In this document: positions 21,244 to 23,887 of the stretch, piece after piece
How the letters are laid out: each line of letters opens with the position of its first letter
How positions within the stretch are numbered: the stretch's first letter is position 1
DNA from: Planctomycetota bacterium
Lineage (GTDB): Bacteria > Planctomycetota > UBA8108 > UBA1146
Length of the DNA: 35,496 nt
Assembly (NCBI GenBank): GCA_015664425.1
Contig: DQQH01000222.1
Location: 1-35,496, forward strand
Direction: 5' to 3'
Program-made: the position numbers and the translations under genes
The notes under the pieces: model-generated
Database searches by the model: none
Told to the model about the DNA's origin: nothing
The model's input: the letters and a program-made list of their open reading frames with translations, nothing else

Positions 21244-21437
21244 TCTCCTCTACCGACGACAGCCCCGGGGAATCCGGACGGGTGGGCCCCCGGGTCACGC
21301 GGCGGTGACAGTTGGGCAAGAACGATTGGAAAAGTCAATTCAGAGGATATTTTCACCGCTTACCATCGTTCGGACCAGCGGGTAGATTGAACCCAGAGAA
21401 GCTGGCTGCCGACGACCAGCAGAGAAAGGAACTGGCG

Positions 21438-22691
21438 ATGAAATTTGCGCTTACAGCTGCGTTGATGGCCTCGCTCACTCTTATTCTCGGCTCTTTTCTC
21501 GCCGCCGACAACGCCCAGGACGCCTCCAACCAGCTGGAAAAACCGATCCTTCTCGAGGCCTCGGGAAAGCCGATCGACACCGACATCGGACATGCCGCTC
21601 CGTATCTGTGTGACTGGGATTCCGATGGCGACCGCGACCTGCTCGTCGGCCAGTTCGGCGATGGCAAGCTGAGGATCTACACCAACGTCGGCACCGACAA
21701 GAAACCGCGCTACGAGGGCCCCACCTGGTTCGAAGCCGGTGGTGAGATCGGCACCATCCCTTCCGGCTGATGCATCGGCTTCGGTCCGCAGTTGGCGGAC
21801 CTCGACGGCGATGGCATCGACGACATGATCAGCGGCTCCTACTGGCCCGGGGACATCTACATCTTCGAAGGCACCAGGACCGGCTTTGCCAAGGGCCACC
21901 CGATGAAGGACGCCTCGGGAAGAGACCTCAACGCTGGACCTCCCTGGGCCGACGACGAAAGACCCGAACTCGAGAGTCTCGCCTCCGCTCCGCGCGCCCA
22001 CGACTGGGATGACGACGGTGATCTCGACCTGCTGGTCGGCAACATCACCGGCACCGTGATCCTCATCACCAACGAGGGCAGCCCAAGAAAGCCCTCTTTC
22101 TCGACCAAGAGGCGCTCCCTCGAGGCGAACGGCGATCTCATCGAGGTTCCCGATGGTGATTCCGGCCCGGTCATCGCCGACTGGAACCGGGATGGGCGCG
22201 ATGACCTCATCGTCGGCGCCGGCGATGGCTCCGTCTGGTTCTACCGCAACAAGAGCAAGACCGGCGAGGAGCCTGTCTACGACAAGGGGATCGCTCTTCT
22301 CGAGGCTCCCGGCTTCGACTGGGACAATTTGCCCAACGAGGGTAGCGAACCGACCGACCGCGGGACTCGTGCCAAGGTCGATGTCAGCGATATCGACGGC
22401 GATGGCTGGCTCGACCTGCTCGTCGGTGGGATCCAGTGGATGCATCAACCGCCACCCGATCTCGATGCCGAGCAGACGGCGCTGCGCGACCGACTTCAGG
22501 CGGAAAAAAAGAAGATCGGAAGCGACCTCGACGAAGCGGTGGAAAAACATGGCAAGTACGACTCGGGCATCCCCGAGATCAAAGCCATCCTCGTGCGCAC
22601 GAAGAACAATTACATCGAACTGGAGCCTCTCGTCGAGGGCGACATCCCCCACGGGTTCGTCTGGTACTGCCGACGGATTCCGCCGGTCTAG
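21438..22691 (+). CDS. FG-GAP/VCBS repeat secreted protein with in-frame TGA at 21768-21770 (codon 111); candidate selenoprotein, 417 aa if read through
   Basis: MKFALTAALMASLTLILGSFLAADNAQD (signal peptide)...GTIPSG-[TGA]-CIGFGPQLADLDGDGIDDMISGSYWPGDIYIFEG...RRIPPV*. Both sides are in the same frame, with domain continuity across the TGA. RBS-like GAAAGGA sits upstream of ATG 21438. Confidence 0.75.
21783..21801 (+). promoter_or_regulatory. Candidate bacterial SECIS-like hairpin downstream of the in-frame TGA
   Basis: GGTCCGC (21783-21789) - AGTTG loop (21790-21794) - GCGGACC (21795-21801): perfect 7-bp stem. Loop starts 19 nt after the TGA, and the second loop base is G. A further outer pairing CATCG (21773-21777)/CGATG (21809-21813) is possible. 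Confidence 0.55.
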
Positions 22692-23887
22692 CTGCGCGTT
22701 GCCTCTTTCCCCCGCTCGTCCGATCGATAACACCAGAAGATCCAGGCGAACACCCCCGCGACAATTCCGCCGAGGTGAGCGGTTCCGCTGACCATGCTGC
22801 TTCCCTGGATCTCCCGGTAGGCGAGGAAAAGCTGAAGGACGACCCAGACGATGAACAGGGATCGAGCCTTGGCGGTGAGAACTATCGGCCTGAAGTAGTA
22901 GAGGAAGACCATCCGCAGCCGCCGGCGGGGATAGGCGAGGGCATAATAGGCCATCACTCCCGAGATTCCGCCGCTGGCGCCGATTCCAGGGACCGCCGAG
23001 GCGGGGTTGGAGAGGTAGCGCAGCAGCGTCGCGACGAGGGTCGCAGCCAGCAGCAGCAGGAGAAAACGCCGCCAGCCCAGTTCGCTCTCGACGTCATCGC
23101 CGGTCAGCCAGAGGAAGTAGAGATTTCCAAAGAGGTGCACCCAGCCGGCGTGAAGAAAAAACGAGGTGAAGATGGTCGCTCCGCCGAATCGGCTCCAGTC
23201 GGCGGGAACAAACCCCCACACCTCGAAAAAGCCAATCACCTGGGGGATCAGAGGTGGTATTGCTTCGCGCCCGAAGCGCTGCTCGGGACTGAAGGAGAGC
23301 AAGACCGCCGTCGAGACGAAGGCGACCAGCAGCATCACGCTCCAGGTCACCCAGGGGATCACGAGCCATTTTTCTTTCTTGTCTTCCAGCGGCATCCCCT
23401 GGAGAACCAGCGCCTTGAGAAGGTCCTTCCCCGGCTCCTCCGAGTACTTGAGTCCACTGTCGCTGGCTTCCTTGCGCTTCTTCCTCGAGGACAACTCGAA
23501 GCGTCCGAGAGCTTCGCGCGCTTCCATCGACAGACGCTCTTCCTCTGGCGGCATCTCTTTCGCTGGGGCGTCCTCGAGTTCTCCTGGATCGAGCCAGATC
23601 AGCTGGCACGACGGGCACACATCGATCTCTGTGGGTTGTTGCCCCTCCCCGCCTGCAACCACCACCGATCTCGTTTCTCCCAGGCAAGAAGGGCAAGGAA
23701 CTCCGCTGCCACTGCCTCCAGAGCGCGCCCGGTTCCACAGGTCATTGGCGAAATCGCGGTCGATAAGCCGGCGCAACAAGCCGATGGTGACTGCGACTCC
23801 CTGACATCCGGGGCACCGGTAGCAGACCATTCCGTCCTTGAGCTTACGCTCGAGAATCTGGTGATCTCGCGGGCAGGTGAGCAGCAT
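22688..23887 (-). CDS. Rhomboid-family intramembrane serine protease with two N-terminal TFIIB-type zinc ribbons
   Basis: 'LTCPRDHQILERKLKDGMVCYRCPGCQG' and 'VPCPSCLGETRSVVV...IDVCPSCQLIWLDPGELE'. Rhomboid 'HLFGNLYFLWLTGDDVESELG', 'GIGASGGISGVMAYYAL', 'GTAHLGGIVAGV'. Confidence 0.9.
   Translation of the reverse strand: MLLTCPRDHQILERKLKDGMVCYRCPGCQGVAVTIGLLRRLIDRDFANDLWNRARSGGSGSGVPCPSCLGETRSVVVAGGEGQQPTEIDVCPSCQLIWLDPGELEDAPAKEMPPEEERLSMEAREALGRFELSSRKKRKEASDSGLKYSEEPGKDLLKALVLQGMPLEDKKEKWLVIPWVTWSVMLLVAFVSTAVLLSFSPEQRFGREAIPPLIPQVIGFFEVWGFVPADWSRFGGATIFTSFFLHAGWVHLFGNLYFLWLTGDDVESELGWRRFLLLLLAATLVATLLRYLSNPASAVPGIGASGGISGVMAYYALAYPRRRLRMVFLYYFRPIVLTAKARSLFIVWVVLQLFLAYREIQGSSMVSGTAHLGGIVAGVFAWIFWCYRSDERGKEATRS

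Follow-up and report, generated by a model that had tools for sequence, protein, structure and literature searches.

A probable SECIS hairpin inside an FG-GAP gene points to a candidate selenoprotein family across a bacterial phylum

The window, by which we mean the whole 35,496-nucleotide stretch of Planctomycetota DNA that was analysed, holds a gene interrupted by an in-frame TGA and, just downstream, a hairpin that is very probably a functional bacterial SECIS element, such that UGA codon 111 would be decoded as selenocysteine (Sec). The earlier note had proposed this hairpin as a SECIS, and the proposal is borne out by homologues, with the core stem present in 96 of 103 homologues that carry the TGA and in 0 of 7 that carry Cys. 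At the level of sequence, the evidence is a conserved in-frame TGA, a selected and covarying stem, the loss of that stem with Cys, co-occurrence with selA, and a linkage to DsbD_N domains; from these patterns we infer Sec incorporation, a redox role, and an electron partner. On balance we favour a broader reading in which this gene belongs to a phylum-wide, unlisted family of FG-GAP selenoproteins that would perform Sec-Cys redox chemistry outside the cytoplasm, with domains of the DsbD type supplying the power, and whose SECIS stem would dictate residue 120 of the protein. Positions are collected in Table 1.

Table 1. Positions in the window of the candidate selenoprotein gene, its hairpin, and a neighbouring gene.
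Feature	Position	Strand	Remarks
Predicted selenoprotein gene	21438-22691	+	417 aa with TGA as Sec; TAG end at 22689-22691; frame otherwise open
N-terminal hydrophobic signal sequence MKFALTAALMASLTLILGSFLAADN	21438-21512	+	predicted, by eye from the translation
Proposed Sec codon (in-frame TGA, codon 111)	21768-21770	+	column shared by homologues
Spacer TGCATCGGCTTC, TGA to hairpin	21771-21782	+	12 nt
Outer arms CATCG and CGATG	21773-21777 and 21809-21813	+	able to pair in the window's MFE fold
Predicted SECIS hairpin, bacterial type	21783-21801	+	7-bp stem GGTCCGC/GCGGACC, 5-nt loop; core TCCGC/GCGGA is 21785-21789 with 21795-21799
5' arm GGTCCGC	21783-21789	+	read directly
Covarying pair 21788/21796	21788-21796	+	third position of the Pro117 codon against second position of the Ala120 codon
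Apical loop AGTTG	21790-21794	+	starts 19 nt past the TGA; G at loop position 2
3' arm GCGGACC	21795-21801	+	read directly
Convergent neighbour	22688-23887	-	zinc-ribbon and rhomboid-family protein (PF13453, PF01694)

The TGA is the sole stop interrupting the frame, and a mechanical ORF list cuts the gene at this codon into two pieces (21312-21770 and 21792-22691). When translated through, the product matched Pfam FG-GAP_3 at 2.6e-19 with four repeats and scored 70 bits for PF13517 and 31.8 bits for PF01839, above the respective gathering scores of 26.9 and 22.1, and its nearest solved relatives are integrin alpha, ITFG2, and CRTAC1. Hydrophobic N-termini are alike across the homologues, and the gene product is predicted from its translation to be an exported FG-GAP (integrin-type beta-propeller) protein. 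A single-sequence AlphaFold model of the product (pLDDT 35) was set aside, and a plasmid search returned none.

Re-reading placed the TGA, and GGTCCGC-AGTTG-GCGGACC 12 nt after it, exactly where the earlier note had put them. The bSECIS rule expects a loop of 3-9 nt lying 16-37 nt from the UGA, a stem of 4-16 bp, a G among the first two loop bases, and an MFE of at most -7.5 kcal/mol (PMC13188914). The window hairpin falls within all of these numerical bounds (19 nt, 5-nt loop, 7 bp, -22.8 kcal/mol, G then U), which confirms the agreement in loop distance and loop G (19 nt, AGTTG) that had been claimed for it. Only 3 of 200 dinucleotide shuffles folded as well as the window's hairpin region (MFE -22.8 kcal/mol; z -2.8), and none of 2000 synonymous recodings of its peptide reached the hairpin's stability (z -4.2). 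About 0.9% of positions are followed by a perfect 7-bp stem within reach, as are 8 of the 1032 TGAs on the two strands, and an Rfam scan of the window gave zero matches. The perfect stem alone is unusual but not decisive; it is conservation that decides.

Across 392 genomes of the window's phylum, the homologue search returned over 100 homologues, full-length or partial, the stronger of which mostly show one internal TGA. Aligning the proteins of 110 loci with the TGA kept as its own letter placed TGA at the residue-111 column in 103 loci and a Cys codon (TGC or TGT) in 7, with residue 112 being Cys in 109 of 110, such that a vicinal U111-C112 pair runs through the family. The only Sec homologue with the following Cys replaced, L096, reads TGA-CGC (Sec-Arg) and has an intact stem. 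TGA-bearing genomes made up 91 of the 392 sampled, about a quarter of them. One of these (G367), which is 99% complete and a single contig, holds two TGA-bearing genes, so assembly error cannot explain the TGA in general. In several genomes, G386, G013, and G367 among them, there are two to four paralogous TGA-containing copies, which suggests family expansion. Scanning contigs with a short peptide pattern yielded just four distant relatives, and these were left out of the analysis.

With +1 as the first base past the TGA, the core pairs run from +15/+29 to +19/+25 and are individually paired in 96, 100, 100, 97, and 100% of TGA loci. All five form together in 96 of 103 TGA loci, against 3.98 expected when synonymous codons are drawn with each gene's own usage. 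Coding constraint alone, which the earlier note had allowed might create the hairpin, falls well short of this, the peptide by itself being expected to yield the stem in roughly 4 of 103 loci. The 7 imperfect loci each lack one pair, either the outermost +15/+29 or, through a C-T mismatch, +18/+26. Within the loop, the first two bases are AG in 96 of 103 TGA loci, and the G at loop position 2 is followed by U or G. Four loci (L064, L070, L066, and L073) keep the stem with neither of the first two loop bases being G (AAGGC/AAGGT, TCGTA) and lie outside the bSECIS loop rule.

The pair +18/+26, which joins the wobble base of Pro117 to the middle base of codon 120, had the highest corrected mutual information (MIp) among all column pairs within 54 nt and was filled by A-T in 71 loci, G-C in 23, G-T in 6, C-T in 3, and A-C never. 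On a protein tree from which the SECIS codons had been left out, +18 and +26 change 14 and 13 times, and among phylogenetically independent pairs the two move together in 4-6 and oppositely in 0, the pairs being few and the median sign-test p being 0.06. As +26 is a replacement site, whether residue 120 is Ala or Val depends on the RNA stem. Compensatory stem changes, by which the earlier note had proposed to judge the element, were found: CCA/GTG against CCG/GCG recurs repeatedly, and single loci compensate elsewhere in the stem, L094 with TCTGC/GCAGA and L028 with TCCAT/ATGGA, the latter keeping its stem despite amino-acid changes on both sides. A further suggestion, that the outer CATCG and CGATG extend the structure, stood for the window's own MFE fold, where these arms pair, but not for the family; their pairing across homologues was no better than with shuffled partners, and we rejected them as a conserved part. 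The conserved element is therefore the inner 5-bp stem with its loop.

The 7 Cys homologues occupy two places on the tree, L017 alone and the other six in one clade of a single genus. The complete core stem occurs in 0 of 7 (0.01 expected), with +17/+27 paired in 0 of 7 and +15/+29 in 1 of 7, and the third base of codon 120 is a pyrimidine in 7 of 7 Cys genes and a purine in 103 of 103 TGA genes. L017 sits beside L016, nested among Sec genes with intact stems, and its own stem is destroyed (TCCGCAAATGGCCGA); its genome retains selA, and the six one-genus genomes all lack it. The stem was thus neither missing from TGA orthologues nor kept in Cys ones, the two outcomes that the earlier note had named as counting against a SECIS, and the pattern is that expected if the hairpin serves UGA decoding alone.

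Evaluating the Sec machinery across the phylum, we found selA in 88 of 91 TGA-bearing genomes versus 157 of 301 others (Fisher p 1e-17, a value overstated since genomes of the same phylum are related). The three TGA-bearing genomes without selA are all drafts (77-82% complete); SelB is present in two, one of which is the window's own. The window's genome is a draft in 293 contigs with a full-length SelB (356 bits; contig C151, L013 10331-12364, minus strand); selA and selD were not found in this 82%-complete draft, and a search of it for tRNA-Sec (selC) returned ordinary tRNAs only, the matches above cut-off being tRNA-Ser (ARAGORN), with zero tRNA in the 20 kb around its selB. Relatives of the same family have selA, a UGA-containing selD, and tRNA-Sec on one contig, no more than a few kb apart, with selB elsewhere, so the joint absence of selA, selD, and selC from the window's genome is as expected if one contig is missing. 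The selD genes of relatives (L128, L129, and other loci of the family) have one in-frame TGA, and selenophosphate synthetase is itself probably a selenoprotein in the window's bacterial family.

These data bear on three other accounts of the TGA and the hairpin. The stem falls within a stretch coding for a conserved FG-GAP motif in which CC (Pro), CA (Gln), and GA (Asp) are set by amino acids, and the hairpin could be a by-product of encoding the conserved G-P-Q-x-A/V-D with no RNA function. We consider this highly improbable, as the stem was observed in 96 of 103 loci against 4.0 from synonymous recoding, Cys genes with similar peptides never form it, and there is both wobble-to-residue covariation and a stem in L028 that is kept with different flanking amino acids. 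Least credible is that the TGA genuinely terminates translation, marks a pseudogene, or arose as an error of sequencing or assembly, leaving two proteins or a broken gene; the ORF listing does split the gene at the TGA and the assembly is a fragmented draft, yet an identical TGA column recurs in 103 loci, two of them in the near-complete single-contig G367, protein similarity extends on both sides of the TGA, and the frame is otherwise without stops. The failure to detect selA, selD, and selC in the window's genome would suit a TGA that is reassigned to Trp or Gly, or read by a near-cognate tRNA, in place of Sec decoding, and this too we hold very unlikely: of the window's 27 long open frames, which are mechanical ORFs and not all of them genes, 16 end in TGA, homologues swap the TGA for Cys codons only and never for Trp or Gly, and SelB is present alongside the strong selA association and a hairpin whose position and loop fit the bSECIS rule.

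Under the SECIS reading, SelB together with Sec-tRNA(Sec) would bind the hairpin loop on the mRNA and selenocysteine would be inserted at UGA codon 111 of the exported FG-GAP beta-propeller protein, where Sec111 and the near-invariant Cys112 may form a Sec-Cys selenylsulfide. The protein would probably act as a thiol/selenol redox agent outside the cytoplasm, trading electrons with DsbD-type N-terminal domains. A C-terminal DsbD_N domain (PF11412) is fused in five Sec homologues over the Pfam cut-off (L026, L051, L056, L058, and L062), with a sixth fusion, L078, below that cut-off and its sequence stopping at the end of the fetched stretch; the fusions occupy at least three distinct positions on the tree. 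Three genes of the Cys clade are followed, with an overlap or a gap of a few bases, by a gene for a DsbD_N-like protein (e.g., L038 2799-3440 and L043 2805-3416; Pfam scores of 22.8 and 18.4, below the cut-off of 25), which is a probable lipoprotein. Because of these fusions and neighbours we lean towards a thiol/selenol redox protein that is exported and has partners of the DsbD type, a role that we rate as moderately probable. It is possible, if doubtful, that the SECIS and Sec are real and the protein is not a DsbD partner, the Sec-Cys pair binding metal or Se/Hg species, or Sec being structural in a binding or adhesion propeller. The familiar roles of FG-GAP propellers are adhesion and calcium binding, vicinal CU motifs are found among metal-related selenoproteins (PMC13188914 Table 1), and the window's gene has neither a DsbD_N fusion nor a neighbouring DsbD gene; against this stand DsbD_N domains fused at at least three separate places on the tree and adjacent in the Cys clade.

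The current selenoprotein list does not include the protein family. No FG-GAP, VCBS, or beta-propeller selenoprotein is among the 119 prokaryotic families of PMC13188914 Table 1 (2026), self-described as the most comprehensive inventory, and NCBIfam has zero models above cut-off for the family. A literature search for selenocysteine with FG-GAP found none, though an earlier mention is possible in supplementary candidate lists (PMC4807772); one VCBS match, a Mycobacterium abscessus biofilm paper with each word once, was discarded. Selenoproteins are reported from Planctomycetes in PMC4807772. Read as we propose, the present genes would add a widespread selenoprotein family (91 of 392 genomes) on a fold with no known link to selenium chemistry, one hidden from standard gene callers with each gene split at its TGA. 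They make Sec use in these bacteria testable, supply roughly 100 natural SECIS variants that share a single core for SelB recognition studies, and offer a clean example of an RNA signal constraining its own protein sequence, such that breadth, fold, and clear RNA-level selection are together what is notable here.

Among known systems, the closest likeness is to the bacterial SECIS, with the E. coli formate dehydrogenases as prototype, which has the same in-frame UGA, within-CDS hairpin, and bSECIS dimensions; the stem and loop TCCRC-AGNTN-GYGGA is specific to the FG-GAP selenoprotein family, unlike E. coli elements, which have another stem and loop sequence. The predicted protein shares with FG-GAP/VCBS propellers (PF13517, PF01839; integrin alpha, ITFG2, CRTAC1) the same repeated DxDGDG calcium-type motifs and differs from them in an added conserved U/C-C pair at residues 111-112; propellers of the integrin alpha, ITFG2, or CRTAC1 type are not known for thiol or selenol chemistry. 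The DsbD N-terminal domain (PF11412), with its conserved cysteine pair CDxxxCLP, is found fused to or beside family members, whereas it is absent from the window's gene and the propeller does not belong to the Dsb proteins. Like the 119 inventoried prokaryotic families, this one has a single Sec aligned with the Cys of non-Sec homologues. Vicinal Cys-Sec pairs are known in few of those families (KCU-star, SaoC, SaoL, HgcA, and MbdU; PMC13188914 Table 1), and in contrast to the inventoried families the pair here has the order U-C and would sit in an exported protein that is propeller-type rather than thioredoxin-like.
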